A stretch of DNA of 64,000 bases, from contig NC_088295.1 of the NCBI RefSeq assembly GCF_032854445.1, positions 62,165,249 to 62,229,248 on the forward strand, given 5' to 3'. Below the pieces are notes generated by a model. That model was not told where the DNA came from and ran no database searches. It saw only the letters and a program-made list of their open reading frames with translations. Position 1 is the stretch's first letter. Each line of letters opens with the position of its first letter. The translations under genes were made by a program, and so were the position numbers. The DNA is from Liolophura sinensis (Eukaryota > Mollusca > Polyplacophora > Chitonida > Chitonidae). Of this stretch, positions 19,060 through 64,000 are shown one piece after another.

Positions 19060-19862
19060 AAGAGAAATGGTCTGAAGCGGAGAACAGGCATAAGAGAAAT
19101 GGTCTGAAGCGGAGAACAGGCATAAGAGAAATGGTCTGATGCGGAGATTAGGTGTAAGATAAATGTTTTGATGCAGAGATCAGGTGTAAGATAAATGTTC
19201 TGAAGCGGAGAACAGGTGTAAGGTAAATGTTCTGATGCGGAGATTAGGTGTAAGATAAATGTTTTGATGCAGAGATCAGGTGTAAGAGAAATGTTCTGAT
19301 ACGTAGATCAGGTGTAAGATAAATGTTCTATGCGGAGATCAGATGTAAGAAAAATGTTCTGATGCGGAGATCAGGTGTAAGATAAATGTTCTGATGAGGA
19401 GATCAAATGTAAGAGAAATGGTGTGATGCGGAGATTAGGTGTAAGATAAATGTTTTGATGCGGAGATCAGGTGTAAGATAAATGTTCTGAAGCGGAGAAC
19501 AGGTGTAAGGTAAATGTTCTGATGCGGAGATTAGGTGTAAGATAAATGTTCTGATGCGGAGATCAGGTGTAAGAGAAATGGTCTGATGCGGAGATCAGGT
19601 GTAAGATAAATGTTCTGAAGCGGAGATCAGATGTAAGAAAAATGTTCTGATGCGGAGATCAGGTGTAAGATAAATGTTCTGATGAGGAGATCAAATGTAA
19701 GATAAATGTTCTGATGCGGAGATCAGGTGTAAGATAAATGTTCTGATGAGGAGATCAGGTGTTAGATAAATGTTCTGATGTAGAGATCAGATGCAAGACA
19801 AATGTTCTGATGCGGAGAACATGTATAAGGCAAATGTTCTGATGCGGAGACACAGGCAATTA
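18985..19862. repeat. 32-bp minisatellite, main array (about 27 units)
   Basis: Units of the type ATAAATGTTCTGATGCGGAG followed by ATCAGGTGTAAG recur every 32 bases (checked at 19081 to 19113). Variants alternate between AGAACAGG and AGATCAGG, and between GATGCGG and GAAGCGG, suggesting repeated local amplification. Confidence 0.95.
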
Positions 19863-28997: not shown

Positions 28998-31900
28998 TCA
29001 GGTCTGAAATACCAACAGTCCAGCATCTATCAACTTCTTTATTTTCCTCCTCATTTCAGGGTCAGCTGAATGCAAGATGCTGAAACAGAGAAGCAACAAG
29101 TCGGTCAAGCAGGTGCATGCAGCTTTTCACAAACCAGTTTCAATTTTGCACTTAAAACGCAGCTAGTAAATGATTATCACAAAACACATGAGTCTGCCAA
29201 CAACCTGCGGACGGCCGTGACTTTCCACCGGGCTCTGCCTGGTTTCCTCCCATCATATTGCTTGCCACCACCGCATAAGTGAAATATTCGCGAGTTTGGC
29301 ATAAAACACCAATCAAATAGATAAATAAATAAACAAAACACATGAAAAGCAAACTGTAAAAATAAATTATGTTACTTGCACAAAGGAACTGTAAAGTGAT
29401 GAAAAAGTCCGTAGCCTTAGCCCAAATTTGTCTTAACTACCAACTTATCTAAGGCAAAAAAATATTTGTACTCAACGTCAATTTTAGTCCGGCCGTTCTG
29501 GCATAGCTTACATGTACTGTATGCCTGTCTTCCATTCTTGAAATTAGTTCTTAACTGCTTATATTAAACTGATTTAAGAGGGCACAGTTCTTAACTCCAT
29601 AAAAAGGATCTACAAATGATACAGCACAATCATTCAGGAGCCTTTCACCAATGTGATCGCTGTGAGTTCAGCTCATGCTGTCTTCCTCTCTGGTCGGACA
29701 TGAAAAGATCTGCTAGCAGACCTGCGGATGGTTGTGGTTTCTAACAGGACTCTGCCAGTTTTCCTCTCACGACAATGCTGGCTCTCGTCATTCAAATGAA
29801 ATATTCTTGAATACGACATAAACACCAATCAAATATATAATTCAATCAATAAAAAAAAATCCTTACCTTTGAGCCTGGACTTGGTTAGACCTTAGGGTCT
29901 GCACCAGCCTTTGTATGTCGGGGTCTATAAGTATCTGTCTGATCTCTGGGTTAGCCAGGATCTCCTGCATCCTTCTCTCATCCTCGTCAGCAGGGGCCAT
30001 CGCTGAGTTTATATTACTGTTCAGGACGTTCACCCCTGCACTGTCTACCTCCCGGGCCTTTGCACTCGGCTTCTCCAAATCTTGTTTATTGCCTAGCTTT
30101 GTAAAGTGATCCCCTGCACACAAAAATAACGGTAAATTAGTTCAGCGAATAAGTAAAATAGCATATGGTACACCACAAACTGACAGACATGCATAAAAAA
30201 GGCCCGGAACACATTTCTTGAAATTTAGAAAAGATAAGACAAATTTGTATCTGTCCTCGTCACACAGGGTTTAGTGCAAATACAAATACATTAAATAATA
30301 GCCATATAAAAAACAATCATGCGAATTTGATCTCTTTATAGTAGAAAAATATAGCTACCTGTACGTCTGTAGCATTTCTTTATTCATTTGAATGACAACA
30401 ATAGTGTTCACTTATATGCCAGATGTCAGATTAAGAGTGCAAAGAGGTCCTTATTAAAGACACATGCCTACAGACTTATATCACCAGCCAGGTCACAAAA
30501 GCTGGACTTGAGACCCAGACTTGCCTGGTCAATGACAATCTAACAGTCAGAACTTTGGTAACTGAGACCTCTTGTCCAACAAGGCTTAGGGCCCTCCAAG
30601 TTGTTACCAACTGAATTAAAAGAATATCACATACTGATTTCTAATCGTGTATTACCTATAATTCCACAGAAATCTTTAAAGAATTTCTGAATTTCTGAGT
30701 TATTCTGATACTTTAACATGGCCCCTTGGGGGTCACTCTGAAACTCTCCAATAGCCTGCACAAATACGGGGTCTGTCAGTCGCCGTGCCAACAAGTCATT
30801 ACCCTGAATCTGTGACAATAAATCATCTGTCAACCACTCTACAAAGAAAAACGATTACAATAGGTTAAGTTCATTACTTCTCTTGGCTGAAGCATTCAAT
30901 ACCACACTGTCTGCAGCTTACTGCACATGAACAGTCAGCAATGAAAGTTGACTTTTAGTGAATCCCTGAAATTGGCGAACCCAACCAATGTAGTTTTCTC
31001 TCGAAAATCAAATTTAAAAATGTGCATAAACTGTAAATTGTAAATTCTGAGTACCAATAACCTCCCCCCTACTATTGATAATGATTCAACACATCACACT
31101 TGTAAATTCTGAGTATCAATAACCCCCCCTACTATTGATAATGATTCAACACATCACACTTGTAAATTCTGAGTATCAATAACCTCCCCCCTACTATTGA
31201 TAATGATTCAACACATCACACTTGTAAATTCTGAGTATCAATAACCTCCCCCCTACTACTGATAATGATTCAACACATCACACTCGTAAATTCCTAGTAT
31301 CAATAACTGCCCCCCCCCCCCACTATTGATAATGATTCAACACATCACACTTGTAAATTCCTAGTATCAATAACTGCCGCCCCCCCCCCCACTATTGATA
31401 ATGACTCAACACATCACACTCGTAAATTCTGAGTATCAATAACCGCCCCCCCTACTATTGGTAATGGTTCAACACATCACACTTGTAAATTCTGAGTATC
31501 AATAACCCCCCCTACTACTGATAATGATTCAACACATCACACTCGTAAATTCTGAGTATCAATAAACTCCCCCCTACTATTGATAATGATTCAACACATA
31601 ACACTTGTAAATTCTGAGTATCAATAACCGCCCCCCCCTACTACTGATAATGATTCAACACATAACACTCGTAAATTCTGAGTATCAATAACCCCCCCCC
31701 TACTATTGATAATGATTCAACACATCACACTCGTAAATTCTGAGTATCAATAACCGCCCCCCTACTACTGATAATGATTCAACACATCACACTCGTAAAT
31801 TCTGAGTATCAATACCCGCCCCCTACTACTGGTAATGATTCAACACATAACACTTGTAAATTCTGAGTATCAATAACCCCCCCCCCTACTATTGATAATG

Positions 31901-34900
31901 ATTCAACACATCACACTCGTAAATTCTGAGTATCAATAACCGCCCCCCTACTACTGATAATGATTCAACACATCACACTCGTAAATTCTGAGTATCAATA
32001 CCCGCCCCCTACTACTGGTAATGATTCAACACATAACACTTGTAAATTCTGAGTATCAATAACCCCCCCCCCCTACTATTGATAATGATTCAACACATAA
32101 CACTTGTAAATTCTGAGTATCAATAACCGCCCCCCTACTATTGATAATGATTCAACACATCACACTTGTAAATTCTGAGTATCAACAACCTCCCCTCTAC
32201 TATTGATAATGATTCAACACATCACACTTGTAAATTCTGAGTACCAATAACCTCCCCCCTACTATTGATAATGATTCAACACATCACACTTGTAAATTCT
32301 GATATCAATAACCTCCCCCCTACTACTGATAATGATTCAACACATCACACTTGTAAATTCTGAGTATCAATAACCCCCCTACCATTGATAATGATTCAAC
32401 ACATCACACTTGTAAATTCTGAGTATCAATAACCGCCCCCCTACTATTGGTAATGATTCAACACATCACACTTGTAAATTCTGAGTATCAATAACCTCCC
32501 CCCTACTACTGATAATGATTCAACACATCACACTTGTAAATTCTGAGTATCAATAACCGCCCCCCCCCCCCCCTACTATTGATAATGATACAACACATCA
32601 CACTTGTACAGTAAATGAAGTAAATGTATTTTACACACATAAACCGTAATAAATTGTAGTTTAAATGTTTGACAGACCAAACTATATGCACCACTCACAA
32701 GAGTCTCATAGGGTCAACAGAACCTCCTTCATGACTTTTGTGGGCCTCCACTTATTAGTTTTCAAATTACGAGCAAATTACATGTACTAAGACAGAAAGA
32801 TGGACAACCAACGCTCTGGAAAGAAAATTCAAGTCAGAAGAGATTGGTACAGCCTCTGTGACCTGTCAGTTTGGTGATTCTGCCCTTATAGCAGTTTATA
32901 AAAATAAGCCAGGATGGCAAACATCAATTTGATGCATGAAAATTATGGATTTAAATTACAAAATGACAGAAAACCTATTGGAATCAAGGAAATGTTTCAT
33001 AAAGAAAAAATTACACGCTCTTCCTGCAGTTTAAAGGTAATCTGAGGTTACAAATTCTGTAAATATGAAACGATACTTACACGAGTTATTTGTTAAAGAG
33101 AAGCATGGGAAGCAATGATGAACTAGATTATGATAATCTGTAATCACTTTTTATGTATGGACTTGGGCTGGTTTGTGAACCTAATCTGAAGTCTCACATA
33201 CTTAATGTTACCATTGGAATTTATGGTTCTAATCAGTTTTCAAGATATCAGCAGAAAAATCACAGAAAATCTGACCAACAGATCCATGGACACCTAAATG
33301 CACAGAACAAGCGAATGCTATCTGCTTCTCGTCCTTTCAGGGGCGGAGCACAAGGCGAGCATTTTGTCAAACTGGTATTCTATTTTTGTTAGTTGATGTG
33401 ATGGGATGAGAGAAAGACACAGTAGAGAGACGCACAAGGTGGGCTTTTAGTCAAACTGGTATTCTATTTATGTTAGCTGATGTGACTGATCAGAGGTACA
33501 GGTTTTCTTTACAAACACGGTGAATGATGCAAGAGATTCTGAATGCTTTATCTAAAAAAGTCATGTTCATCATGGTTCCCCATTTTACCTAAATTTTACC
33601 TTATATTACGGTTGCGAATATAATAGAGGGAGGAAACCCATAAACATCGGCAGATTTCTGAAAAGACTTTCTCACATACATGTCCATTCTATGTATTATA
33701 CTTTAGCTTTTTTTTCAACACCTGCAGGCTTGCTACTAGATCTAGCAAATTTTCCCCATTATACTCATATCTGTTTCACAGATCATGTCTTTTGTCCCTT
33801 TTCCACTGTTTACAATCATGACCACAGACTTACACACTGCCATGAGGCGGTAACATACCTTTATTTTGTAGCAACCCTTCACTGGCTAGCATTGCCTGTT
33901 GAACCTCTGGGATCTCCAGTCCCTTTTCTCGGTTGGTTTGCTTAGGCTTTATAAAAGGCATGTCTTTATTGTATGTCTTTTTAGCACCAGCAGCATTACT
34001 CTCTGTCAAATTCCGTGTTTCATTAGTCCTTTTATCGTGTTTACCACTCGAAGCTGTGGCATTGAAGAGAAAGCCTTTCTGAAAGCCCCCGAATGTTTGG
34101 TTTTTATTCTTGATCTTTGGTCTGACGTCAGCTCCTCCAGTGGCACCTTGACCCCCTGAAGCTCCACCCACTGCATTATTTGACAGCATCTCCGCGTTGG
34201 CTGCTGCTCCACTGGGCATAGCACTTGCTCCTGCCTGAAGATAACAATGAGAATGTATACACTAAAAATGGTCTCCACAGAAATACATTAAGTGGTGAAT
34301 TTATTAGGACCAATGTAGCATTATTTAACACACAATTACATGCAGTCATTAGACTATAATAGGGTCAATCAGGGCCTGATCCAGGATATCCTTGAGCCCA
34401 TCAATAAGGCTTTGGAGTCAGAAGTGAAAAATATTCACACTTTCATGCTAAATGCATATAAAACAGGTCAGTATAACAGCTGCGAATCAAAAGAGCACCC
34501 AAACTATTCAACTAGATCAACCCCTATCAATGGAGACCCAGCAAATGCCCAGCAGCCATTTTTATTGATGTCAAACGTTCCTTTCCCCGACCATCATGTG
34601 ACAAGGTGGTGAGTTGGTGTCACATAAAACATAGAGTAGCGTCACAATAGAAACTGACATGCTGCGATGATGCAGACAAGACAATCAATATCTGACACAA
34701 CAAGGTTTAAAGTCCTGCTTAACAATGACAAGCATCACTACATTGTGTGTGTGGAGTGGGGATGAGAGGTGAGGGGGGTGGGGAGCAGTTTGCTGCCTTC
34801 CTACTGCAGAGACTAACTATGGAATTTGTGTCTCTAGTTGTTGGCTACTTAGGTTATGTGTATGAATGGTCAATTACAAATATAACAAAACATTATATTC

Positions 34901-41300: not shown

Positions 41301-44300
41301 TGAATGTAATACTTGTACAACAGTGAAATAGGACAAATATTAATTGGACAATATATTGATTGGACAAAATATTAATTGCACAGAAAAAAGTTTTAGGCAG
41401 GACTGTCAAGTAGGCAAGGGAACATGTGTTTGGAGGTTTTCTAGTCTTTTGTATTTTCTTTATCATAAAACTTTGCAGGCCCTATTGGGAAGACACTCAG
41501 CAGTAAAGAAGATATAAACATTACCATGAAAGTTAAAAATAATAAGAAGAAGAAGTTGAAGGAAGACCATCTGAACATTACTGAAGGTAACTCCTTTAAT
41601 ATTTAACTCACTGATCCAAAACAAATCTACCTGACCAAAATTCGTAAGGTTTTAATCATCTCTTCTGTAGGGCATACATACATTATGGTCTGTAGATAAG
41701 ATGTTATGAGAGATATGACAAGGGACCAAGTTTTGCCCAGATGAATGCATTTTTAGATTTAAATACATGTACATATCATTATGATAAAATATTACTTCTG
41801 ATGTTGAAACTTACGTATTTCCTGTAGGATGTCACATGACCTTCCAAACAATCCTCAAATTGCTCAACACAGTTTTCATTTTAGGATCCAGATAGTATGT
41901 CTCATGGAGCCAGGCAAACAGAGCAGCTTAGCCATGTGCTCAGTTTTATTTATTTATTTATTTATTTGATGTTTAAAGTCGTACTCAAGAATATTTCACT
42001 TATGTGACGCCAACCAGCAATATGGTTGGAAGAAAATAGACAAAGCCCAAGGAAACACACAACAATCCAGGGGCTGCTGGCAGACCTTCCCATTTTCGGC
42101 CGGAGAGGAAATGGGCTAAATTTTAAGTTGCTTATCATATTACATATTGTATGTTCTAGGATGGTGTTATATATGTGTAAATGTAGACTAAAAGATATGC
42201 ATGTATTGGTGCAATGGATTATGCTTTCGTATGGCTCTGAAGTACAAATTTATAAATTACTTGTATATGCTGTAGATATGTTAAACGTTTTTGTACTTCT
42301 TAATCTTATTCACAATTCTAATGTGTGAATGGAACGAAATTCATGTGACTAGCAGAGTTTTCATTTAGAATTGGAGAAGGAGGTCAGAGTTCAAAATAGG
42401 TGGCTGAATTGAAAGTGATTACATCTCAATTACTATTGATTTAAAAAGTAAGAATATTCAAAGTAGACGGGTATGGGGATGGTAGCAGACAGCAGTCTGC
42501 AGCCTGTTACTTGCCCTTTTTGAACACCCTGGACAAGAGAAAAAAAATGGCATATGTTATCTGGGTACATCATTTTTTTGTCAGGTGGCAATGAAGATTC
42601 TATAGAAGAAAGTGCTGACAGCACAAAAGAGGTAAAGGAAGATGGAATGTCTGAAGAAACTGAGGAAGATGTACAGCAACCCTCAGGTATAGCTGCATGA
42701 AGTGAATGTGGGAAACATATTTTTCTAGGCTGAAAATTTCCTTTTTGTTTTTCTCAGTCACACTGTGCGCCTGACTTAATTTGTATTGACGGACGGGTAA
42801 TATTTATAGGCATGCCAGAAATTTTTTAAAGTACATCAGAACTTTTCAGTGAGATAATTATCAATACCTCCAAGAGAACAAAATGTAAAAGAAATGAAAA
42901 GTTGTATGTCATATTCTTGGAGTTCACACAGGACATTTAATTCTAGCAGTCAAGTTACTGTATATAAACCATGTCATAGGTTTCATTTAAGTTCATCCCT
43001 GATGAAAACTGTAAAAGCGAAAATTGAACTAGATGACATTTGCCTGTATTGCTTCGGTTCGAAAAATTGTGAAATATGGAGTAAAAATCCTAGCTTACGT
43101 ACATACATTTGTTCTTTGCTGATTCAGAAGATTTTGTCAAAAAGAAGAAAAAGAAGAAACGAAAGATGACTGAAGACACAACCACAGGTTTGTTTTAGAA
43201 AAGACAATTTGAGGCTTTTGTATGTGTATTCATAAAAAAGGGTCATTCTTTTTTTATTTATCAAAAATAAACCTTGATGTCTATGTCTCAGCTGAAGTCT
43301 TACTTTTGGCCAATCACATTCTCTCAATTTTCACTTTTCCGAACAATTGTTTACCGCTCTCTGTTTTGAGTACATGTATTTGGACCCAAACCAAATGATT
43401 TTAATACCTGGGGCAGTAGAGAGCTCTGGTCCAGTGGCAGATAACCTACTGACACAATGGCTGCTCCAACGACAAGATGGATGGTTTGGCACAAGTAGCA
43501 TTTATCTCACTTGTGACATTAATTTGTTTAAAATTTGCAGACATCTTCCTTATAATATGTATTATAAGTGCATGGGTTCCCCAAATTGGTAGAACAGATT
43601 TTATTGAAATACGAAAATTACATATTGTGGAAGGCAGTAAGTGTGCAGTTTTGTAATTTAGTACCCATACTGATGTAATTTATTACTCCTTTATATTGCA
43701 TTAGTGCTCCTTTGTTGTATGTAAGGGCTCCTGTGTTGCAAGTGCTCCTGTGTTGTATGCAAGCTCTCCCGTGTTGTATGCAAGCCCTCTTGTGTTGTAC
43801 GCAAGAGCTCCTGTGTTGTATGCAAGCACTCTTGTGTTGTATGCAAGTGCTCCTGTGTTGCCAGTGCTCCTGTTTTGTATGTAAATGCTCCTGTGTTGTA
43901 TGTAAGCACCCTTGTGTTGTATGTATGTGCTCCTGTGTTGTATGTAAGTGCTCCTGTGTTGTATGCAAGTGCTCCTGTGTTGTATGCAAGCACTCCTGTG
44001 TTGTATGCAAGTGCTCCTGTGTTGTATGTATGTGCTCCTTTGTTGTATACAAGTGCTCCTGTGTTGTATGTAAGCGCTCCTGTGTTGTATGTATGTGCTC
44101 CTTTGTTGTATCCAAGCGCATGTGTTGCAGATATCAAAAAGAGGAAGACAGACACAGGAGAATCTAGTCAAGAGGAGACAACTGATGAAGGAAAAGAGGA
44201 GACAACTGATGAAGGGAAGTCTGGAGAAGAGAGTGATAAGGTTAACCAGATGCAAGAATCACAGTGTGAGTACAACAAAAAAGATGCATACTTTTTGCTA

Positions 44301-47300
44301 ATTAAGGCCATTTATATCATTGTTGAATATGACCGATTTTGTGTTGGGTATTTTTTTGTGATTCTCTTTTTCTGCATGGGGTGTCATTTCGTTTAGTTGT
44401 AGGAAAATGCAAAAGAATGCATCAAAAAAAAAAAAAAAGAATTATAAGCATAAGCTGGTATTGCTTTTGTTACGGAATAAAAACAGTATTGGTGGGTGGA
44501 AAAAAGATGCAGCTCTGAATTTTACAGGGAAACAATGCTCAGTTATGTCCCTTGACCAATGGACCAATAGGATGTTGTCTAAAGAGAGCTCCGTGATACA
44601 GCCCATTACTCAGCAATATAGCCAATTGAATTATATAACTCTTATTCTCCCTTAGACAATCTCCAGTTGGTGATGTTCTTATCTTGGTCATAGGCCATAA
44701 CCAGGGCCTCGGCTGGTGCTCGCCGTTGTTTCAAATTTAGAACAAGTTTTTGAAATGGCGATAAAATTCGAAAAAATGAGAATGTTTAATATGTGTACTT
44801 AAAAAAATGTACAAATGTTGTACATGGGAATGGGAATGGGAATGGGAATTTTCTGGAGATTAAGCACATTTTTGCTATTTTTCTGATGAAAACAATCCAT
44901 TTACTTTCATTTCAAACAGCCTCATTTCGGTGAAACAACAACAACACAGTCACAGTCAGATTTTACTTGACAAATATACAAAGGGGGTTAAGCATTCTTG
45001 CAAAGTGACGTAGATTATATAACACTTAATGAATGAAAATCATGGCATTTTTGGAATGCCTTTCATAGAAAAATCTAAAAAAAAAATAAAATTATTAAGG
45101 GAGATAAATATAGTGTTAGACCTGTAAATGAAGTTACCTCCCTTGAAAAATTCAACCTTTCCACTTCAATAATCTATTTTTTGGAAGTAAATGAAATGTT
45201 TAAATGTTACCATCACATAAATGTGTACAAAGTCTGGTTTTCCTATGTCATACTGTGTTACTTCAATGTTTTAATCATAATGCGGCATTTGAAAGAACTA
45301 AATTTACAAATATATTTTGTAACAAATTTTTCTGATAGAGGAAATTTCATTTTACTAGGACCCTATGCGGACTGATTGAAAAAAGGATTGATTTTTTTTC
45401 TCAAAAAACAAAAACACTCTGCCAAGCATTGGTTCATTATTTTGAGGAAAATATTTCTGTATGTAGCATGGATAGCTGGAAGAGACCAAACTGATTGTAG
45501 CAGCTTTAACAAAGCGGATAAAAGTGAATTACAGATGGAGACCAACAGGAGTCATATGGACACTGTTACCATTCGATCAGTGGATGATAACAAAGATTAC
45601 GTCAAGGCGGTTAACAAAGTACGGCTAAAGAAAAATAGTATTGGCTACAAAGTCTGATGGGTGGCTAAAGTGATTTGCTAAAGAAAATACTGACCCAGAG
45701 AAAGCCCTTCATGACTGAGTATTGCTTGTCATTACAATTCAGTGCAGCATTTTTGTTTTCAACCTAGTTTGGTCCAGGCCATAACTAAGTATTGTTCCCT
45801 GTTCAGGAGAAGAATCAAACTCCGTGTATTGAAACAAACTCCACGTAGACATTGTCTGATTTATAATAGTGTGATGAGGAAGGCAGACTAACTTAAATTG
45901 ATTCTACAAGGCTCTAATAAAAGACAAGCCTTGAAAAGTCTACCACTAGAGTCAAACTTTTCACTTGCCTATTCTGTGCAATCGTTGATTGAAGGAAAAA
46001 TGGAAGTTTTGTGTGTGTGCATGCTTGGGTTTGGTGCTGAATGAATTACGGTAAATGACCTAAAAGTTGCACATTTTACCTGATTCTGAGATTTTCATCA
46101 ATCTCACAGAGGTGTTTTGAAGAACAGGAAAAATGTATATTTCACCTCCAAAATGAGTTATTTATGACATCAGTATGCCAATAAAAATGCAGTTATTGAG
46201 ATGACATTTTAGGTCATTTATTATATTTAGTGGTAAGAAAGCCATGAATGGTATCCAGAACTGTATGTAGTTGGTAATTTCTTGATAGGAAAAAGTTTCA
46301 TTCATTGGATACACATGTAGACTACTTGATGACCTCTGACAGACTTTTTCTTCTCATCCAGTACCAGGTAGCTCATTGTCCACAGCAATTTTATCTGACA
46401 CGTCCTTTGAGTCATTGAAGGAGAAAGTGTCAGAGTTGACGCTGAAAGCCGTGGCAGATATGGGGTTTACCCACATGACTGAGATACAGGCAAAAGCCAT
46501 CCCACATCTGCTGGAGGGAAGGTATGCAGAAGTTTTTAGTCCAAGCAGAAAAGTTCCTGAAAACCTTCAAAACAGAACACAAAATTTCCCAAGGATTGTC
46601 AGGTGGTTTGGGTTGATAAATCCCATTAAAAGTTAACTTGGCTGTTAACTAGCAAGAACTTAACTAATTCTACACAGTTTAACATTACTGCTGCTTTGTG
46701 CTTGGAGGTTTGTCAGTGTATTGGAAATATTCGTAATAAGCTGAAGGATGTTAAACACCAGTCCTACATGTAAATAATTCTCTACTGGCTTAGTTTTGGA
46801 GAAAATGCCATTTACCTAATTATATTTTCTTGTTCATTGAATTCTGTGCAGTTGAATTTGGTGGCGCTAAGCTGATCCAGCCTTCCCAGTATGTTTATTG
46901 GTGACATCATTTCCAATAATTCACGGAAATTATGCTTAAAATAGTTATTAAGACATATATAAAATATGCCTCAAAAATTGTTTTCAAATTTGTCCCATTT
47001 CTTGATTTATATTCCTTAAAACCCTACTCTTCATTTTATAATACATTTTCATGTATCCTTTAACTGTACTTACAGGGATTTAATGGGAGCAGCTAAGACA
47101 GGCAGTGGGAAAACCCTAGCCTTTCTCATCCCTGCTATAGAGCTCATCAATAAGCTGAGATTTATGCCCAGGAATGGTATGTAGCTTCAGAAAATGAGAG
47201 GGTTTACCATATAGGTGCCTTTAGTGGGTATCATTTGGAATTAAATAATAAAGGTTAAGTTTAAACCAATTGATATGACTTATAACTACATATTCATTAG

Positions 47301-50300
47301 TTAGGATTTAGATTGATAAGGGTTTTTTTTTTTGATGCATGCTAGTTTATGATAAGAATTCATTATTCAAGTAAATGAAATTATTTAATGAGTGAAATCT
47401 AAATAACTGCATAACATGTGCAATGTTGTAATACATGTGTCAAATTTGATTGAGGACAGGCCAACTGTATTTTAAGTAATTGAAACCTTTCAACGAAAAA
47501 TGAATGACCGTTCACACCTTTCCGGTATGCTTAAGTTAGCACAATAAATCACACCATGTGGATACGAATAAAATAATGTGAAGTCCTTCCAACGACGTGT
47601 TCACTCCCGGCAGGTACTGGTTGTGTGATCATCTCACCCACACGAGAACTCTCCATACAGACGTTTGGGGTGCTGAAGGAGCTGCTCAAGTACCATTGTC
47701 ACACCTACGGTCTGTGTATGGGGGGAACTAACAGGGTGGAGGAGAGTAAGAAACTGTCCAAGGGCATCAACATCCTGGTGGCCACACCTGGCAGGCTGCT
47801 CGATCACTTACAGGTGAGAAAAGGTGGCTGTGACACACGTTAAAACACATGACCTGACATCTGCATGGAAGTGGGGCCTGATGGCACAAGGGATCTCACC
47901 TACAGAGGCAGGTTTCATGCAGTGTGAGAAGATGGCATTCTGTGCTGTTATGCAGTAGTGCTAATCTCTTATCTAGCTCTTGGCTTTACAAGTACACCTG
48001 CTTGGAACTAGTTGATTTCAGTTCTAAGGAAAATTTGCATGTTGTACACTATGTAATGTTTGAGATCTATCCAGTGTCTATATCATGTGCCTGGGTGGGT
48101 TGTCGTGTTTGGTGTCTTCAGCATGGCATTGCAGTGACACAGAACTATAAATAAGTTGAAACTGAGAATTGTCTGCTATATGTACAAGGACACACCATCA
48201 TGATATTGCCAAAATAAGTTGAAATTATGAAAGTAAAAGTCAGAGATTATTTCCAATCACATCCAGAATTTCCTGACTTTTTTCCTATGGTTTTCCCAGA
48301 TGCTCAAATTACAACTGCTTTTTTCTCTCTAGAACACCCAAAAGTTTTTAATAAGAACTGCAATGAATGATCTGCATTTTTCCCCAGAAATACTTTGGAT
48401 TTCATGATTAACATGTATGAATAACAAAGCCTTCAATGTTGTGTTTATTTATAGAACACCCAGGAGTTCATGATTAAGAACTTACAGTGTCTAATCATTG
48501 ATGAGGCAGACAGGATCCTGGATATAGGGTTTGAGGAGGAGATGAAACAAATCATGAAGCTGTTACCAAGTAAGGGAGTATACAGTATACAATTACACTT
48601 ATTGGTATATCTGTAGGCTGGAATGCTTACTGTGCTAATTGTGTGCTGCAACACTTACTAGGCTAATTGTTTGCTACAACACTTACTGGCCTAATTGTGT
48701 GCTCGAACACTTACTGGGCTAATTGTTTGCTACAACACTTACTGGTCTAATTGTGTGCTGTAGCACTTTAGTACTGGCCTAATTGCGTGCTGGAACACTC
48801 ACATGTATTGTGCTAATTGTTTACTACAGCACTTACTGGTATAATTGTGTGCTGTAGTACTTTAGTACTGGCCCAATTGTGTGCTGGAACACTCACATGT
48901 ATTGTGGTAATTGTTTGCTACATCACTTACTGGTCTAATTGTTTGCTGTAGCACTTTAGTACTGGCCTAATTGTGTGCTGTAGCACTTCAATACTGGCCT
49001 AATTGTGTGCTGGAACACTCACATGCGTTGTGGTAATTGTTTGCTACAACACTTACTGGTCTAATTGTGGGCTGTAGCACTTTTGTACTGGCCTAATTGT
49101 GTGTTGGAACACTCACATATATTGTTCTAATTGTTTGCTACAACACTTACTGGTCTAATTGTGTGTTGTAACACTTTAATACTGGTCTAATTGTGTGCTG
49201 TAGCACTTTAATATTGGTCTAATTGTGGCTGGAACACTCACATGTATTGTGGTAATTGTTTGCTACATCACTTACTGGTCTAATGATGTGGTGTAGCACT
49301 TTAGCACTGGTCTAATTGTGTGCTGTAGCACTTTGGTACTGACCTAATTGTGTGCTGGAACACTCATATGTGTTGTGTTAATTGTTTGCTACAACACTTA
49401 CTGGTCTAATTGTGTGCTACAACACTTATTGGTCTAATTGTGTGTTGTAACATTTTAATACTGGTCTGATTGTGTGCTGTAGCACTTTAATACTGGTCTA
49501 ATTGTGCGCTGGAACACTCACATGTATTGTGGTAATTGTTTGCTACATCACTTACTGGTCAAATTATGTGCTGTAGCACTTTAGTACTGGTCTAATTGTG
49601 TGCTGTAGCACTTTGGTACTGACCTAATTGTGTGCTGGAACACTCACATGTGTTGTGCTGATTGTGTGCTACAACACTTACTGGTCTAATCGTGTGTTGT
49701 AACACTTTAATACAGGCCTGATTGTGTGCTGTAGCACTTTAATACTGGTCTAATTGTGTGGTGTAGCACTTTTGTACTGGTTTAATTGTGTGCTGGAACA
49801 CTCACATGTGTTGTTCTAATTGTTTGCTATATCACTTACTGTCCTAATTGTGTGCTGGAACACTCACATGTATTGTGGTAATTCTGTGCTACATCACTTA
49901 CTGGTATAATCGTGTGTTGTAACACTTTAATACAGGTCTGATTGTGTGCTGTAGCACTTTAATACTGGTCTAATTGTGTGTTGTAACACTTTAGTACTGG
50001 CCCAATTGTGTGCTGGAACTCTCACATGTATTGTTCTAATTGTTTGCTACATCACTTACTGGCCTAATTGTGTGCTGTAGCACTTTGGTACTGGCCTAAT
50101 TTTGTGCTGGAACACTTTACAGGGACACCGTGCCAACGTAAAAAAAATTGTGCTGTTATTTTAGACCTCTTCTACATATAATTGAGACTTCAAGATGTCT
50201 ACTGACACATATCTGACTCTGGTTGGAAGATCGAATGTTTAGTTTATTTGGGGTTTCCCTTCAACCATCAGCTCGTTCAAGTCGCTGTATTTAAAAAGTC

Positions 50301-52883
50301 TGATTTTTTTTAGTCATTTACCTCCCCTTGTTGTGTAGACGAAAGGAGATGTTTGGTGAACTTGAAATGTCAGACACAGCACAGTGTTGTAATTATGCAG
50401 TATAACTTCAGGTCTGCCATTTGCAATTACGAGTACTTTACAAAACATTATCAATAGAAAGGAAGATCGTATTTGATTTTCTAGACTTCTGATTTGCTTT
50501 CATATATCGTATTGTTTACATGTGCGATTCATGAACAAACATTGCATTGTCTTTGCGCTGCCTCATTTGCCTGTTGTCTCGTCGGGCAGATTGTTTAGAC
50601 CAGTCACGAATTTCCCCTTACAATTCTCTTAATTGACATTTTGTAGGAAATATTAGGCCCAGGAGGTTTAGTTAGGTACACCAAGAGTTAGCAGTTCTTG
50701 AGTATTGCCCATTTGTGTTGAACAGCAATAAAGTAAACAAATAAAATAGACTGATCTCTTCCAGAATCTGGGTTCTCGGTCAAACACCAAAGTTAAGCAA
50801 CGTCGAGTCCTGCTAGTACTTGGATGGGTGACCGCCTGGGAACACCGGGTGCTGTAGGCTAGCAAACCTTTTCGCCATGATATGGCTGATTATGGCGTTA
50901 AGTCATAATCATTCATTCCAGAATCTGCCCTAACTGTCTCTTCACTTATAAACCAGATTGCTACAGTACTATAGAAATATTCTCGACTAAGCCAAAAAGC
51001 ACTGATGTAATCTGTGATAATTTCAGAGAGGAGACAGACCATGTTGTTTTCTGCCACACAAACCAGGAAGATTGAAGACTTGGCTAAGATGTCGCTCAAG
51101 AAAGAGCCTCTGTATGTTGGTGTGGATGATAAGAGAGAGACAGCCACAGTGGAAGGTTTAGAACAGGTACCGTGGTGTTCTTGTAAAATTGTTGTGGAAT
51201 TGTTGTGAGATTCAGGCTATATAAGACATGACACAATAGGTCTTAACTTAATAACTGTAGACAAGTTGGATTTGATCTCTCAACCCCAGAGGGTCAGACC
51301 ATGTTTTTATGCATTTGATTAGAAAGAGCTGTACGAAACAAAAGAATAGTAAGTCGGAAGACGTAATGATAGAATATTCTTGATTTTCTTATATCTTTGC
51401 AGCTATTGCCTGGTATATGCCTATAATACCTACACAGCATAATGCCTTCAGAATATGCTTGAATAAAAAACCTTGCAAACATCCTTCTTTGAGAAATACT
51501 GTGTTTCACTTAAAGATCAGCATTTTTGAAATAACACATTGTACTTGATTCTAAAAGATTCATCCACATTATATGGCCATTTTAGAGTCTGTGTCATTTG
51601 ATTAATATTTTATTGGAAAAACTTTAGTGTTGGCAGCACCAGAATCATTACAAGGCTGTTATGTGGGTTTGAATGAGTTTGATGGTTAGACTGGTCAGCA
51701 AGGCCAAGAACAACGTAGAAAAACGCAAAATAACTTTAAACCTGATACAAAAACAATCAGTAGATGCAAGTGACCCAGGCTATAGATAGATGTGTGAGCG
51801 AACAAATGTCAATAAATAGACAGGAGTCAATAAACCGCAGACTGTGCCCGGTTTCCTCCCTCCATAATGCTGGCTGCCGTTGTATAAGTGAAATATTCTT
51901 GAGTATGGCGTAAACACCAATTAAATAAATAAATAAATGAATAAACTGCTTGTTAGAGCTTTATTCCAAAGACTGAAGAGCTAACTTGTCTGTTTCTGTT
52001 TTTCGTGTTTTAGGGCTATGTGGTGTGTCCATCTGACAAGAGATTCCTGCTGCTCTTCACATTTCTCAAGAAGAATCGAAAGAAGAAGATCATGGTGTTT
52101 TTGAGTTCCTGTCTCTCTGTCAAATATCACTATGAACTCCTCAATTATATAGACTTGCCTGTTATGTGTATTCATGTGAGTATGCTTGACACTTGCTTGT
52201 ATATCTTGGATAGGATGAAAAAATAGGATGTTATCAAAGTTCTCTGTAATTTCCACCAGTAAATACAAAACAGAACTATTTTTGAGCCATCCTCTTTGTC
52301 TTTGCTGCATCAGATCTGTGAATAAGATTTCATTCCTTGGTTTTAAAGAAAAAAGGTACAGCGGGTAAAAATGTTTTCAGTTATTCCAGAAGTTTTATTT
52401 GAGATTTGTACTGAAACTTTATAATCGCTGTGAGCTCATGTCCAGTTTATGCAGGCTTCCTCTCTGGTAGTACACAGGAAGGTCTGTCAGCAACCTGCAG
52501 ATGGTTCTGGGTTTCCACAGAGCTCTGCACAGTTTCCTCCCACCATAATGCTGGCTGCCGTCGTATGTGAAATATCCTTAGGTACATCATAAAACACCAA
52601 TCAGATAAATAAAAATATGTTTTTTTTTAACAGTGATGATGTTCAATAGGTTCACAAGTATTCTTTATTCCAGGGTAAACAAAAGCAGGCCAAACGCACA
52701 CAGACATTTTTCCAGTTCTGTAATTCTGAGGAAGCAACATTGTTATGTACAGACGTGGCAGCCAGAGGTCTGGACATTCCTGCTGTCGATTGGATAGTTC
52801 AGTATGACCCACCGGATGACCCGAAGGTAAGGGCAAATTTTCAATAGATCTTGACACCCAGAAAAAACTTAGTTTGTTATTGC

Positions 52884-52922
<39 letters not shown>

Positions 52923-55637
52923 TCTTTATTTATTGAAGGTAACTGTTCTTCCCCAAGGCCTTCACAAAGAAAACAATATATAGGAAAGAAGGCAATTTTT
53001 ATGTTATATTTCTAGTGCTGCCTGCCAGAATACAAAAATCATCAAAGTATACATACTGTAATTTTTCAGCTTAGTCACACTTTTGCATACTGTGTTTTTA
53101 TTCAAGGATATTCTGAAGGTATTATTCTTTGTAGACTGATAAAATTATACTTTTTGTAAAGCCCTGAAATCGGCCAATCCAACCAGTGTGGCACATCTTG
53201 CACTGAAAGTTGCTCTTTCATATGTGAAAATGTTGAGGAATTAGGGTAAGTTTGTTTGAAGATCGACAAGGTTTAAATTCACCACAAATCTCTCACCTCT
53301 TTCCTCATTGTGTGAAAGGTTACATATATATCACCTCTGCCAAAGAAGAGTTTTTTGCTGGTATTTAGTTTTCTGTTTGTCTTTTGTAATGTGATTTGAA
53401 TGAAATTTTGTTCACAGATGGGCCTTGGGCTAAGAACAAATCTGTTGAATTTTGTTTGTACCCCCAAAATGTTTTTTTTTTAATACTTGACCAGCTGGTG
53501 ATATGTCTTTTGTCTCCTTTTTATCATAGGAATACATCCACAGGGTGGGTAGGACAGCCCGAGGGGAAGGGGGTATCGGCCATGCCCTGCTCATTCTCAC
53601 CCCTGGAGAGCTGGGATTTCTGCGGTACCTGAAGAAAGCAAAGGTCCCACTAAACGAGTTTGACTTCTCCTGGAGCAAAGTTTCACAGATTCAACCTCAG
53701 GTAACCTATAGGTTGATGGGTAATAAACATGCAGGATTTTTTCACGGCTTATGTCGTGCTGGTCTTTAGATGCTTTCATTAAAGCTCTCTATAGACCATT
53801 TTATTTTATCGAAATGTAATTACTGTCTGTGCCTTCAATATTTACCTGCAGATGGTCTCTCCGGACATACCTGGGAAGACCTGTCAGGAACTTGTGGATG
53901 GTTGTGAGTTTCTCCCAGGCTCGGCCCGCTTTCCTCCCACCATATTGCTGGCTGTCCTCGTACATAAAGTGAAATAGTCTTGAGTTTGGCGTAAAACACC
54001 AATCCAAACTATTACTTTTGTTGATGAGGCTTACATTTGTCCAGTTGGATGTCATCATACCCTTCTAAAAAACACATTAGCACACCTTTCTGTGAAAGAT
54101 TACAAGTAACAGAACAGAACAGAATGTGACAAAATGTAGTAATTTGGCCATGGCCGAACATTTAGGTCAAATACAATATTTGGTCACGTGTCATTGTTTT
54201 CTTGAGACCATTTCCTGACATTTTGTATGTTATTTATTTTCCAGTTGGAGAAGCTTATTGAGAAGAACTATTTTCTGCACCAATCTGCTCAGTTAGCGTA
54301 CAAGAGTTACATCAGAGCGTACGCCTCTCATCATCTTAAGAACATCTTTGATGTCAGCAGCCTGGACCTACAGAAGGTGGCCTTGTCATTCGGCTTCAAG
54401 GTGCCGCCATATGTAGACCTCAGTATCCTTTGGGTTTTGTGCTTTGAATATTAACATTTTGAAACATTATGTAGTGAACTTCTTAAAAATGGAATACTGG
54501 TGATTTTTGACGAGATATCCATATTTGCTAATCAAATCAAAACTTTCCTTAAACTGTTTGTAAAGTTTGAAAAAGTAATAATGCAACCCGATTTATCAAT
54601 TTTAAGAACTTTATATTAGATTTTGAATGGTAACATGTACAAAAATAGCTGCAAAAAATCTTTTTTTTTTTTCCCAAAATCTCCAGTACAGCTGTCTTTT
54701 TTTTTTTTTTAACGTGATGGCAGTGTGATAAGATTTTCATTCTAGACTGATAAAATTCATTTGTTTGTAAGTATTGACACTGATAAACCAAACAAATAAT
54801 GTATGTGTAGTTTGATCTCCAAAATCAAATCCCAACAGACATCTAAAGTTTGATTCAAATTTGATATTATTAGTCAGAAAAATTGTTTCTTAAGATGTGC
54901 GCTTTTCGAAAATGCAACCCACAATCAAGAACAATAAAACACCATTCCGACAACAACGACGCCGTATTTCCATAGTGCTGGTTGTCACAGTCTTCAGGAA
55001 TTGAGACTTTGTCAGAGGAAGCATTGCGCTGATGCATCGCCTGGGATGGATTTGGAAATACACAATGGAATTGGGAAGTGAAAAGAGTTGTGCAGCATTA
55101 AAAGTTTTTCTAAACTCATATTTGTTTGTGGGAAGAAGTTGGTAGAAGATGGTTGGGAGTAGGCAAGTATGAGGAACAAGTTAAACACGTTGTTTGACGT
55201 TTCATGTCAATTGTCAGTTACTTGCACATAAACATCCCGACTGATTGCAGAATTATTCAAATGTTCAAATTTTCTGTAGATTTTGAGAAATAAGTTTATG
55301 AAAGGTAATACAGGTATGTGCAAATGTTACATTCTAATTTTGATTTGATTTCCTTGTTATATAATTACATAGAATCAAATTCAAAGTCCAAACAGGTTCA
55401 ACTGTTGCTTTTCAGACAACTTATTCAGACTTTGGTCCAGAAAAAAAAAACATCTCGATAAAAAATTCCTTGACCCTGACACCAGATGTTCACAATAAAG
55501 GTGGAGAGAAGGCCAATAGAAAAGGAGGGTCAGGTGGGGGCGGTTACGGATACCAGCGTGGAAACAAACAACACAAGTCCAAGGTTTTCAAACAAGTTGG
55601 TAACAGGGACAGATCCAGGAAACAGTTCTCCAGATGA
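38349..55637 (+). CDS. DDX18: DEAD-box RNA helicase DDX18 (Has1 family), 707 aa, 16 coding exons
   Basis: Coding exons: 38349-38427, 39265-39372, 41479-41586, 42585-42686, 43128-43187, 44131-44265, 46362-46521, 47076-47176, 47614-47813, 48455-48569, 51027-51166, 52014-52175, 52674-52826, 53530-53700, 54245-54422, 55486-55637 (TGA). All are GT-AG and in phase (2124 nt). Residues 1-200 are a Lys/Glu-rich tail. The core has F213/Q240 (Q motif), AAKTGSGKT 256-264, PTREL 293-297, TPGR 342-345, DEAD 367-370, SAT 398-400, TDVAARGLD 516-524 and HRVGRTARG 545-553. A conserved C-terminal extension ([15 protein letters not shown]) and a Gly-rich basic tail (GGGGYGYQ) follow, as in the family. DDX18/Has1 is an ATP-dependent nucleolar helicase for 60S subunit maturation. 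Human DDX18 is about 670 residues. The ATG is the first in-frame one in its exon (acceptor at 38338); an upstream coding exon is not excluded. Confidence 0.93.
38565..38680 (+). repeat. Interspersed repeat family R3, copy in DDX18 intron 1
   Basis: It shares CATTATTCTTTGGTGACTGA, ACTTTTTGTGAAGCCCTGAA and ATTGGGCAGCCCAGC with 53110-53230. Weaker relatives are at 30945-31025 and 54725-54835. It has no coding capacity. Confidence 0.5.
41942..42122 (-). repeat. SINE S1 copy in a DDX18 intron, reverse orientation
   Basis: Starts with (TTTA)n and the reversed tail (GTCGTACTCAAGAATATTTC), then CCAACCAGCAATATGGTTGG and GGGGCTGCTGGCAGACCTTC. Confidence 0.85.
43703..44128. repeat. 21-bp minisatellite abutting a DDX18 exon
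   Basis: About 20 units of the type GTGCTCCTGTGTTGTATGCA plus one base. Because 21 is a multiple of three, several frames stay open on both strands and yield CVVC- or HTTQE-type repeat peptides; these are artefacts. The last unit, altered to GCGCATGTGTTGCAG, ends in the AG acceptor of the sixth coding exon (44131). Confidence 0.95.
44826..44849. repeat. (GGGAAT)4 hexanucleotide repeat
   Basis: Four perfect GGGAAT units in a DDX18 intron. Confidence 0.9.
48085..48150 (+). repeat. Possible SINE S2 fragment
   Basis: GGTTGTCGTGTTTGGTGTCT followed by TCAGCATGGCATTGCAGTG resembles the interior of the S2 copy at 58200-58250 (GGTGTCGTGACTTGTGTCTT, CCGCATGATACCCTTGCAGT). Confidence 0.35.
48333..48358 (+). 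pseudogene. Decayed copy of the 5' end of the DDX18 DEAD exon
   Basis: A pyrimidine tract plus AG (TTTTTTCTCTCTAG) is followed by AACACCCAAAAGTTTTTAAT then AAGAACT. The real exon at 48455 begins AACACCCAGGAGTTCATGAT then TAAGAACT. The match covers the acceptor and about 26 bases, lies 122 bases upstream of the true exon, and then fades out. It looks like a partial tandem duplication that has lost function. Confidence 0.45.
48605..50117. repeat. About 32-bp minisatellite with higher-order structure
   Basis: Units share CTAATTGTGTGCT and come in two main types. One continues GTAGCACTTTAATACTGGT, and the other GGAACACTCACATGTATTGT. They alternate in longer blocks that also contain TACAACACTTACTGGT units. 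Spacing of 32 was checked at 49461 to 49493. It fills much of the DDX18 intron between the DEAD and SAT exons. Confidence 0.95.
50770..50860 (+). pseudogene. 5S rRNA-derived sequence (pseudogene or SINE head)
   Basis: From about the 30th base of 5S rRNA to its 3' end the match is strong. It includes AAGTTAAGCAACGTCG (box A region), GCTAGTACTTGGATGGGTGA, CCGCCTGGGA (box C region) and CACCGGGTGCTGTAGGCT. The first 25-30 bases of a normal 5S gene are not recognisable, so it is unlikely to be a working gene. It is followed by about 60 bases ending CATAATCATTCATTCC, which resembles the S2 SINE tail. It sits in a DDX18 intron in the sense orientation. Confidence 0.8.
51838..51950 (+). repeat. SINE S1, 3' portion, in a DDX18 intron
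   Basis: It has TGCCCGGTTTCCTCCCTCCA, TAATGCTGGCTGCCGTTGTA and the tail GTGAAATATTCTTGAGTATG with CACCAATTAAATAAATAAAT. Confidence 0.85.
52424..52612 (+). repeat. SINE S1 copy in a DDX18 intron
   Basis: It has ATCGCTGTGAGCTCATGTCC, TCTGTCAGCAACCTGCAGAT, CCCACCATAATGCTGGCTGC and the tail GTGAAATATCCTTAGGTACA with CACCAATCAGATAAATA. It ends about 60 bases before the next coding exon. Confidence 0.85.
52884..52922. repeat. (TAA)n microsatellite
   Basis: About 13 uninterrupted TAA units in a DDX18 intron. Confidence 0.95.
53110..53230 (+). repeat. Interspersed repeat family R3, copy in DDX18 intron
   Basis: It shares TATTATTCTTTG, ACTGATAAAATTATACTTTT, GTAAAGCCCTGAAATCGGCC and AACCAGTGTG with 38565-38680. 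Confidence 0.5.
53845..54008 (+). repeat. SINE S1 copy in a DDX18 intron
   Basis: It has CCTGCAGATGGTCTCTCC, CCTGTCAGGAACTTGTGGAT, CCCACCATATTGCTGGCTGT and the tail GTGAAATAGTCTTGAGTTTG with CACCAATCC. Confidence 0.8.
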
Positions 55638-58021: not shown

Positions 58022-58395
58022 GTAGCCTGTAATGATTAGGGCGTTAGCCTCAAATCTGGGAGACCTGGGATCAAACCGAGGTTATACCAAAGACTTTCAA
58101 AATGGTACTTGTTGCTGCCTCGCTTGGCGCTCAGCATTAAATGGTTATAGAGCAAGAAAATGGGACTGGTTGACTGGTGGTGTCAGTATAGTGTTACCAA
58201 GTGGGGTGTCGTGACTTGTGTCTTCCGCATGATACCCTTGCAGTTGTGGCAGAACTTTGGCGGCATGGACTCGTCCTGCCACAAGATTAGACCGTGTATG
58301 TACATGCAAACTCAACTCCTCAATTCCTCGTCGTCATATTACTGAAATATTGTTAAGTACGACGTAATACCTCAAGCATTCATTCATTCATTCTT
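58022..58395 (+). repeat. SINE S2, fullest copy
   Basis: It has a tRNA-like box A region (GGGCGTTAGCCTCAAATCTG) and box B (GGGATCAAACCGAGG), then GCTGCCTCGCTTGGCGCTCA. The tail is CTGAAATATTGTTAAGTACG, then ACGTAATACCTC and (ATTC)n. The S1 and S2 tails are clearly related, so both families probably use the same LINE partner (inference). Confidence 0.75.
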
Positions 58396-61035: not shown

Positions 61036-63049
61036 ACATCGTATCTAAGTAACATATTCTTGAACAAACAATCGATGTAGAGTAAAGGGAGGAGCTAACG
61101 GGACGTATACATTCCCAGTTATTTCGGGTAATTACCCACTGTTGTTCACAACAAGATGAATTTGAAAACAGAGGCCTACTTACGGCATATATAAATTTTG
61201 AAATTATACCTATATAAAGTAATGGAAGAGTGTAATGGAATGAATATTCCAATGGAATCGAGATCGAAGACAAGAAATCGACATTAAGTGACTTGATGGT
61301 GACCGTGTCTGACAGGTACATTAACAATATCGATGCTGGTCAGGGCGCTAAAAGGCTCACCCTTATACAAGTACCAAGACTGTAAGTGAACACGACGGCC
61401 GAACTAGAGCAACATCGTTATGTGAAAGCTTTGCTCTGTACAGGCCAAGAAACGGCTTTGTTGAATGAAACCAGTAGATACACTCAAAACTGTAATTACC
61501 AGACGGGCTGTATGTCTGAGGGCTTGGAGAATCTGAAAAGAACGCAATTTTGTATTGTATTTAGTCCTTATAGAGTCCCTGCGCCAGTTAAGTATAGTCC
61601 AGTCAAGAACGTTATGACCCAAGCCCAAATGAACAGGAGTTGTTGTTAAAAATAAGATTTTCAGGCGCCGATGTCAAACGATCCGTATTTTCGGATATCT
61701 GCCCTCGGGCAACATTTGTTGTCCAGTTTTAAAGAAATGGGCTGGGAAACACGGTTGGTTACCCGCAAGCACATGAGCAAAATTTTGAAGAATTTCTATT
61801 GCCTGTATCATGGAATGCCGTTTTCAAGAACAAATGTTGTCCGTGGATCTATTAAAAGCCAGTATGCAATAATTATATCTATTAGTAATATCACAGTGAT
61901 CAGTCTTCTGAGAGGTAGAAAATGGACATAGGGAAACGTCGCCATCGTAAATGCGCCTGCCTCAGCATTAGCGACTGTCTTATAGAACGAGCCCCTGAAG
62001 AGAAACAGTATATAGGCTGCTGAGTGCAAGAGAGCCTGTTTTACCATAATGAATTTGGTGGAATAATTGCACATATGCTCAGCCTATAGCGTTAACGACA
62101 AAACCCATGAAGCGATTATTCTATGTCTTGTTTGAGAGAAGCGCCGGCCTCTTTCATGTTGATTACTGTTGTGTAAATCCACTTTGATCTAATTCCGTGC
62201 TCCGCAGCTGTTTGCCGGGTGTTCATTGTCCAAGGCGTTATAAACTGAGTAATCGATCGATCGCTATAACACGATTTTTTTTTGCACAAATATTTGGTTG
62301 TCCTGATGAATGACAATGTAAAGTGACACTTCCGGGTTGTCTACGGGATATGCGGTTTTCTTGGAGATTTTTTTATGGTGCATTAATGTAGACCGTAACG
62401 GAAATCTTTTACAGGTGAATAGATACCGCTAAAGGGTTTTGCCGCAAATGGGAATGTGATTGATTGTCCATCAAGTGCACTAAAACCGGAAACGAGATTA
62501 CCACTGCTAACGACATTACCCTCGACTTTGCAGCTTGTCTGGTTTGCTTTTGTGCAATGTCCAAAAGAGGTAAAAGGTATTAAGTTCGGCTGGTTAGTGA
62601 CTGTTTGCATTGCTTTTACCCTGTATAAGGTCTTTAGCCGCCGGTTTTACGTGCATAGGGATAAGAGATTCCTTTGGTAGAGTAAAAAGGGCTTACGCTG
62701 GGAAAGGTTTGAGCTTGTCTTGTCAAGTGTTCTGTCTTCAAATGGAAACCAGGAACCGTTATAATGTATTCATGCAAATAGGCATATAACTGGGATGTAG
62801 GAAATTCTATATTTCCCCAAGCGCAGATTTCAGTCTCGCCTGAATTAAACACTTGAATTCTTTGGAAATTCAGACACTGTTCAACTAACAGGAATGTAAT
62901 CTGTGCCAATTTTTGTGTCATATTCGAGAAGCCTGAAACAGATATGACTGATTAAAATGCTTTAACGCATTTGGAACAAACCGAAGCGTGAAACAACAAT
63001 GTAAACTGATTGGTTGAAATTACTAAAGTAAGATAATACATTTCCCATG

Positions 63050-64000
63050 TATACTTTAACCCATTGTTGTCCTCTACCTTTTCTCAGATACTAGTACTAA
63101 TGAGTACAGGACATGCCTCATGGGCGTCGACATCAAGAGGCCCTGTATGAGTATTATTCCTAAACTGTCATCCACGTTTACATTTGTCTTGTATTATTTA
63201 ACACATTGTTGTTCTCTGTCTTTTCTCAGATACTAGTACTAATGAGTACAGGACATGCCTCTTTGGCGTCGACATCAAGAGGCCCTGTATGAGTATTATT
63301 CCTAAACTGTCATCCACGTTTACATTTGTCTTGTATTATTTAACACATTGTTGTTCTCTGTCTTTTCTCAGATACTAGTACTAATGAGTACAGGACATGC
63401 CTCTTTGGCGTCGACATCAAGAGGCCCTGTATGAGTATTATTCCTAAACTGTCATCCACGTTTACATTTGTCTTGTATTATTTAACACATTGTTGTTCTC
63501 TGTCTTTTCTCAGATATTAGTACTAATGAGTACAGGACTTGCCTCATGGGCGTCGACATCAAGAGGCCCTGTATGAGTATTATTCCTAAACTGTCATCCA
63601 CGTTTACATTTGTCTTGTATTATTTAACACATTGTTGTTCTCTGTCTTTTCTCAGATATTAGTACTAATGTGTACAGGACATGCCTCATAGGCGTCGACA
63701 TCAAGAGGCCCTGTATGAGTATTATTCCTAAACTGTCATCCACGTTTACATTTGTCTTGTATTATTTAACACATTGTTGTTCTCTGTCTTTTCTCAGATA
63801 TTAGTACTAATGAGTACAGGACTTGCCTCATGGGCGTCGACATCAAGAGGCCCTGTATGAGTATTATTCCTAAACTGTCATCCACGTTTACATTTGTCTT
63901 GTATTATTTAACACATTGTTGTCCTCTGTCTTTTCTCAGATACTAGTATTAATGAGTACAGGACATGCCTCATAGGCGTCGACATCAAGAGGCCCTGTAT
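63050..64000 (+). repeat. 142-bp tandem array of exon-like units, running off the window
   Basis: Units recur at exactly 142 bases (ACCTTTTCTCAG/GTCTTTTCTCAG landmarks at 63081, 63223, 63365, 63507, 63649, 63791, 63933). In each, a pyrimidine-rich tract ending CTCAG precedes 57 bases that end CCCT before GTATGAGT. Exon-like segments are 63088-63144, 63230-63286, 63372-63428, 63514-63570, 63656-63712, 63798-63854 and 63940-63996; the intron-like segment is 85 bases with a branch-point-like TTTAAC. Of three frames, only the one reading TSTNEYRTCLMGVDIKRP is open in all seven copies. The other two meet TAG in copies 5 and 7, or in copies 1-3 and 7. Segments of 57 nt in phase 1-1 would splice to a 19-residue repeat. 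No family is recognised. A plain satellite is the main alternative. Confidence 0.6.

Follow-up and report, generated by a model that had tools for sequence, protein, structure and literature searches.

A 142-bp tandem array with splice-like anatomy in the chiton Liolophura sinensis: possible coding mini-exons in a repeated exon-intron unit

A 64,000-nucleotide stretch of the Liolophura sinensis genome (assembly GCF_032854445.1, contig NC_088295.1, positions 62,165,249 to 62,229,248; hereafter the window) ended in a plus-strand tandem array of 142-bp units, each holding a 57-nt segment resembling an exon and an 85-nt spacer resembling an intron. An earlier note on this DNA had read the part inside the window as a cassette of mini-exons. 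The array started at window position 63037 and ended 1,731 bases beyond the window edge, comprising 19 gapless units and 2,695 bp in all. In the locus that spans it beyond that edge (L001), the whole array occupied L001:286-2980, where Tandem Repeats Finder (TRF) reported 19.0 copies of a 142-bp period with 97% matches and 0% indels. A DNA search of the assembly (609,464,459 bases, 632 contigs) gave nine matches, all within the array, so that one locus was found; such counts are lower bounds, and a lack of matches is no proof of rarity. Within these limits, the very many dispersed or centromeric copies typical of a satellite proper were not seen, nor were the thousands of copies that, according to the earlier note, would overturn its reading. 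The left flank (1,141 bases) occurred once in the genome, and the right flank had no other genome match over approximately 590 bases, after which a dispersed element begins. This element of ca. 230 bp (L001:3569-3803) was found at 39 further places with 71-79% identity, among the 40 scored of 92 candidates.

The seven 57-nt segments described earlier, spaced exactly 142 bp apart and each set between a pyrimidine tract with CAG and GTATGAGT, were recovered in the window (Table 1), and the seventh donor was found complete in L001. All 19 units carried AG, 57 nt and GT, judged by sequence signals alone, giving an exon length divisible by three. The segments were flanked by TTTTCTCAG upstream (for units 11 and 18, TTTTCTGAG) and GTATGAGT downstream, and their GC content was 47%, compared with 32% in the spacer. 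A branch-like TTTAAC was located 29 nt upstream of the exon-like segment, with no AG between. Under a rough splice-site matrix, the acceptor typically scored 8.3 (7.2 in unit 1, 7.8 in unit 7, and 7.2-8.3 in 17 units), a typical value matched or exceeded by 5 of the 3,495 AG sites in the window. Nine changes in the left-edge "intron" had left its acceptor, a branch-like CTTTAAC (A at 63059) and the AG-free zone in place (P about 0.07), a retention of splice signals that is suggestive only.

Table 1. Features of the array and of the upstream gene (window coordinates)
Feature	Position	Strand	Basis or sequence
Window part of the 142-bp array	63037..64000	+	TRF, unit alignment; goes on to 19 units
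Left edge, 3' part of the "intron" preceding unit 1	63037..63087	+	9/51 differences from array consensus
Exon-like 57-nt segment, unit 1	63088..63144	+	TSTNEYRTCLMGVDIKRP + junction Tyr
Intron-like 85-nt spacer, typical of units	63145..63229	+	GTATGAGT...TTTTCTCAG
Exon-like segment, unit 2	63230..63286	+	TSTNEYRTCLFGVDIKRP
Exon-like segment, unit 3	63372..63428	+	TSTNEYRTCLFGVDIKRP
Exon-like segment, unit 4	63514..63570	+	ISTNEYRTCLMGVDIKRP
Exon-like segment, unit 5	63656..63712	+	ISTNVYRTCLIGVDIKRP
Exon-like segment, unit 6	63798..63854	+	ISTNEYRTCLMGVDIKRP
Exon-like segment, unit 7	63940..63996	+	TSINEYRTCLIGVDIKRP; donor cut by window edge, complete in L001
DDX18-like RNA helicase gene, upstream of array	46340-55637	+	PDB match of first exon listed
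DDX18-like exons picked by scoring	46362-46521, 47076-47176, 47614-47813, 48455-48569	+	
DDX18-like exons picked by scoring	52014-52175, 52674-52826, 53530-53700, 54245-54400	+	

The array shared with minisatellites its head-to-tail, gapless, near-identical units (97% alike) in a single array, and it differed in having a full splice-like cassette and in concentrating its variation in one 57-nt part. One quite possible explanation, which we take seriously, is a minisatellite of ordinary length that codes for nothing, has grown and become uniform through unequal crossing-over, and carries its pyrimidine tract, AG and GT by chance. The rarity of the full cassette spoke against it. When random 142-bp window segments were read as tandem, an open symmetric cassette appeared in 10 of 6,286 segment-strands and in 65 of 52,846 in a finer scan; with the branch motif and AG-free zone added, it appeared in 1 of 52,846 overlapping segment-strands and, among dinucleotide-shuffled versions of the unit, in 7 of 20,000. 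All these figures flatter the rarity, given overlapping segments and thresholds placed just below the unit's own scores once these were known. Among ten TRF rows with a period of at least 84, the cassette was found in this array only, even with relaxed thresholds; that the nine other rows, about four distinct arrays, gave none also told against a minisatellite.

Diversity was unevenly spread over the unit. In units 1-18 (the spacer of unit 19 was excluded, as it departs from column 71 at the array end), nine columns varied, of which 4, 10, 16, 26, 33, 35 and 47 lay in the segment and 126 and 140 in the spacer; unit 19 added no variable column within its 57 nt. The mean pairwise difference per site was 0.0490 in the 57-nt segment and 0.0038 in the 85-nt spacer, a 13-fold contrast, and the 18 units comprised nine exon-like and three intron-like sequence types. 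The hypergeometric probability of finding seven or more of the nine variable columns in the segment was 0.022, a coincidence of the varying part with the predicted exon that again disfavoured a minisatellite. With the block moved stepwise around the unit, seven or more variable columns fell inside it at 28 of its 142 positions, and clustering at the best block position gave P values of 0.05 (by columns) and 0.019 (by diversity). The unit types followed the order A B B C D C E F G H F F I H H H H B J, which fits block duplication. The direction of the contrast, with the spacer homogenised and the exon-like part varied, matches what a portion of PMC2576457 describes for exon-intron repeat genes.

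The plus-strand frame that reads TSTNEYRTCLMGVDIKRP plus Tyr in unit 1 was open in 19 of 19 copies, with no stop across the 19 joined segments; the second plus frame was stopped in 5 of 19 units and the third in all 19. Further copies with stops or frameshifts, which the earlier note had asked after, were absent among the 12 additional units. The predicted 19-residue repeat was [TI]S[TI]N[EV]YRTCL[MFIL]GVDIKRP with a Tyr formed at each junction. The five variable codons in the window were as claimed before (T/I, T/I, E/V, a silent ACA/ACT, and M/F/I), and two codon states were added beyond its edge, a silent ATC/ATT and Leu at the M/F/I site.

Taken as sequence, the array had one exon per unit, one frame open throughout and introns more homogenised than exons, as in a tandem exon-intron gene. 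By a narrow margin over the minisatellite, and at close to an even chance, we suggest that it consists of real symmetric (phase 1-1) coding mini-exons of an unrecognised, fast-evolving plus-strand gene. If the units were transcribed, spliced and translated, every 57-nt exon would lengthen the protein by 19 residues, with a Tyr made at each junction, and unequal crossing-over or gene conversion would multiply the exon-intron units and homogenise them. Changes in length would leave the frame intact, and the exon copies would differ, possibly maintained by selection, while the introns were held alike. Weak donors suggest variable exon inclusion. A more specific proposal, which we consider rather unlikely, is an orphan chiton gene built nearly entirely of 142-bp exon-intron units, in which the near-identical intron would serve as the recombination substrate and the one-cysteine, 19-residue exons would be kept different; individuals would then differ in the number and order of peptide repeats.

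A series of results weighed against coding mini-exons, beginning with the splice signals themselves. The donor score of 2.9 was reached by 666 of the 3,778 GT sites in the window, and the acceptors of units 11 and 18 (TGAG) scored only 2.3. Identical scoring of eight exons of a DDX18-like gene upstream of the array gave 2.4-8.0 for acceptors and 3.6-11.6 for donors, placing the typical unit acceptor above and the weak unit donor below all eight, in a comparison sample biased by having been chosen with these same scores. The three versions of the unit that were tried all failed the cassette test once it included a codon-score threshold. Clustering of variable columns also occurred elsewhere: six other arrays, used as controls, gave P < 0.02 in two and 0.10 to 0.75 in four. 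The two were an array at another locus (L003, P 0.008), where a mean diversity of 0.32 suggests register slip, and an array of three copies (P 0.0135). Exon-like segment and spacer do differ in diversity, but this array is not alone in clustering its variation.

The coding signal was near neutral as well. The 171 possible single changes in the 57-nt segment comprise 7 to a stop, 130 replacements and 34 silent changes, and because only 7 create a stop, the absence of stops is little evidence of selection. The hydrophobic last site, offered earlier as an argument, was trivial, since M, I, F and L all follow from an unchanged middle T; it and the missing stops were dropped as signs of selection. 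Comparison of silent with replacement changes across the 19 units, as the earlier note had proposed, found two silent and four replaced codons, resembling by inspection the 130:34 expectation, and the variable columns fell on codon positions 1:2:3 in a ratio of 1:3:3; no constraint was visible in either. With a codon model built from 43 open frames (12,245 codons) of kinase and P450 loci, five exon variants scored 1.35-2.91 over 18 codons (coding mean 2.68; open non-coding -2.69). The corresponding likelihood ratios favoured coding 2.1-4.3 fold without the junction Tyr codon but came to only 0.85-2.65 fold with it, the latter in eight units scored. Among open non-coding segments 16% reached the 19-unit mean score, and 23% of coding segments lay at or below it. 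The earlier statement that exactly one frame is open in the seven copies held for the three plus-strand frames, but the joined segments also had an open frame on the minus strand, with a similar codon score. Codon usage thus near neutral gives weak support at best.

These values raised the alternative that the segments are true repeated exons of a non-coding RNA or untranslated region, as the splice anatomy was better supported than coding, the codon and substitution evidence was near neutral, and no start exon was found. We consider this very unlikely: a length divisible by three and an open frame in each of the 19 copies would then be coincidence, the RNA fold of the unit was ordinary (z -1.21 and 0.28), and the Rfam search found nothing on the array, its two sub-threshold matches in L001 falling on a microsatellite.

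Partner exons for the putative coding array were sought on both sides. Between 55.7 and 63.0 kb, no candidate first exon combined a clear signal peptide with a phase-1 donor; scan maxima were 19.1 for an internal exon and 13.0 for a phase-1 first exon, compared with 14.9 and 8.4 on the control strand, and the same scan recovered the eight DDX18-like exons at scores of 19.7-35.0. The first-exon candidate at 58160-58295 (13.0 vs 8.4 on the control strand) lacked a clear signal peptide and was not adopted. Downstream, no convincing exon was found as far as 82.5 kb; short exons could escape the scans on either side. The best downstream plus-strand exon (21.7) was rejected as probably a dispersed element, since it resembles peptides read from several places here. 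On the minus strand, an open stretch at 74193-74461 scored 23.2, and its enclosing frame had no Pfam match. If a gene exists, its unique exons would be short or further away.

Past unit 19, the frame stayed open for 25 codons to a TGA (65775-65777, window numbering extended), and an AATAAA (65790) stood 12 nt beyond that TGA, followed by a GT-rich stretch. Within the coding-exon reading, unit 19 could accordingly be pictured as a terminal exon whose donor is read through to this stop and polyadenylation-like motif. The idea is improbable: the tail had a non-coding codon score, the spacer of the other units is open as well and accounts for part of the read-through, and AATAAA or ATTAAA occurred 23 times on the plus strand of the 14 kb scanned.

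The search for relatives of the predicted peptide likewise gave the mini-exons no outside support. A protein search of the genome with the repeat peptide (E <=10) returned 82 matches, of which 19 fell on the array's units and 63 outside it. Eight of the outside matches, at four loci (L003-L006), were examined and all were tandem arrays, as judged by TRF at L003, L004 and L005 and by eye from the translation at L006. No paralogue was found among these 82 matches, with eight of the outside ones examined, which is not proof of absence. The last unit and its tail as query gave one outside match (E 1.47). Neither Pfam nor PDB held a significant match to the repeat: the single PDB match had an E of 0.95, DUF5804 (Pfam, E 0.02) was dropped, and so was Sortilin_C (E 0.009, 16.8 bits vs a cut-off of 27), which rests on the repeated query. 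The five genome matches of the Sortilin_C family all lay away from the array. Two arrays with weak repeat-peptide matches had long open stretches in one frame, namely a 72-bp array at C10:19324933-19325566 (L003:234-867) and a 51-bp array at C2:16670400-16670954 (L005:401-955).

That the examined outside matches were other tandem arrays is in keeping with a minisatellite, as is the lack of partner exons found and of visible constraint. Tandem arrays are common here, with 31 TRF rows in the window (overlaps included) and six more in L001, and a 609-Mb genome with many arrays may be expected to hold a few chance cassettes. The cassette reading of the earlier note was thus borne out in its set of splice sites and in the exon-like diversity set against homogenised "introns," but found neither a 5' exon nor a relative to support it. 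Confidence in all these readings is our judgement and was not computed.

Genes that grow by repeating exons are known, and the mechanism considered here would not be new, because SmPoMuc, the Schistosoma mansoni 10-3 gene and Tetrahymena leucine-rich repeat (LRR) genes work this way, according to the portions of the reports drawn on. In the polymorphic mucins (SmPoMuc) of S. mansoni, as excerpted from PMC2576457, the intron portion changes little from repeat to repeat, with introns >94% identical and exon differences kept by selection; the same text, citing others, describes spider-silk introns as more homogenised than exons. SmPoMuc differs in its unit of ca. 1 kb with microsatellites, its 15-exon genes, its multigene family and its demonstrated transcripts (PMC2576457, in the part consulted), whereas the chiton array has a 142-bp unit, one locus found, and is known from genomic DNA. 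The S. mansoni 10-3 gene has tandemly repeated exons with 81-base repeats, and the micro-exon genes (MEGs) of that species have short exons of mostly divisible-by-three lengths (sections of PMC4015677 and PMC10526429). The MEGs, likened here by gene architecture, differ in intron length, which ranges from 100 to nearly 5000 bp, and in a signal peptide, none having been found for the chiton array. Tetrahymena genes with 90-bp LRR exons share equal-length exon arrays, one intron phase and a junction residue, and expansion via unequal crossing-over has been proposed for them (PMC6564038, in part); they comprise thousands of genes in phase 2 with leucine-rich repeats, whereas the chiton array has another 19-residue repeat, phase 1 and one locus. 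In the portion of the literature covered by our search, we came across neither this array nor any tandem mini-exons from a chiton. If transcribed, the array would be a compact natural mollusc case of protein growth through exon-intron unit duplication. Its 2.7 kb could then be typed whole by single long reads, allowing change in repeat number, diversification of exons and homogenisation of introns to be followed side by side. An untranscribed array would serve as a useful caution that minisatellites can look very convincing.

The RNA helicase gene that precedes the array was recognised as DDX18-like by the first of the eight exons, which matched DDX18 in PDB (E 8.3e-10); the other seven exons are presumed to belong to it from their helicase motifs. 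On the minus strand at 29866-30838, two exon-like stretches scored 46.9 and 19.9, and one of them had a sub-threshold STI1/HOP DP-domain match (26.3 bits vs a cut-off of 29.1). Other long arrays in the window lay at 18991-19850 (32 bp), 43703-44116 (21 bp), 48628-50116 (94-280 bp) and 31038-32608 (62 bp), the last with a run of nine C in its unit consensus.
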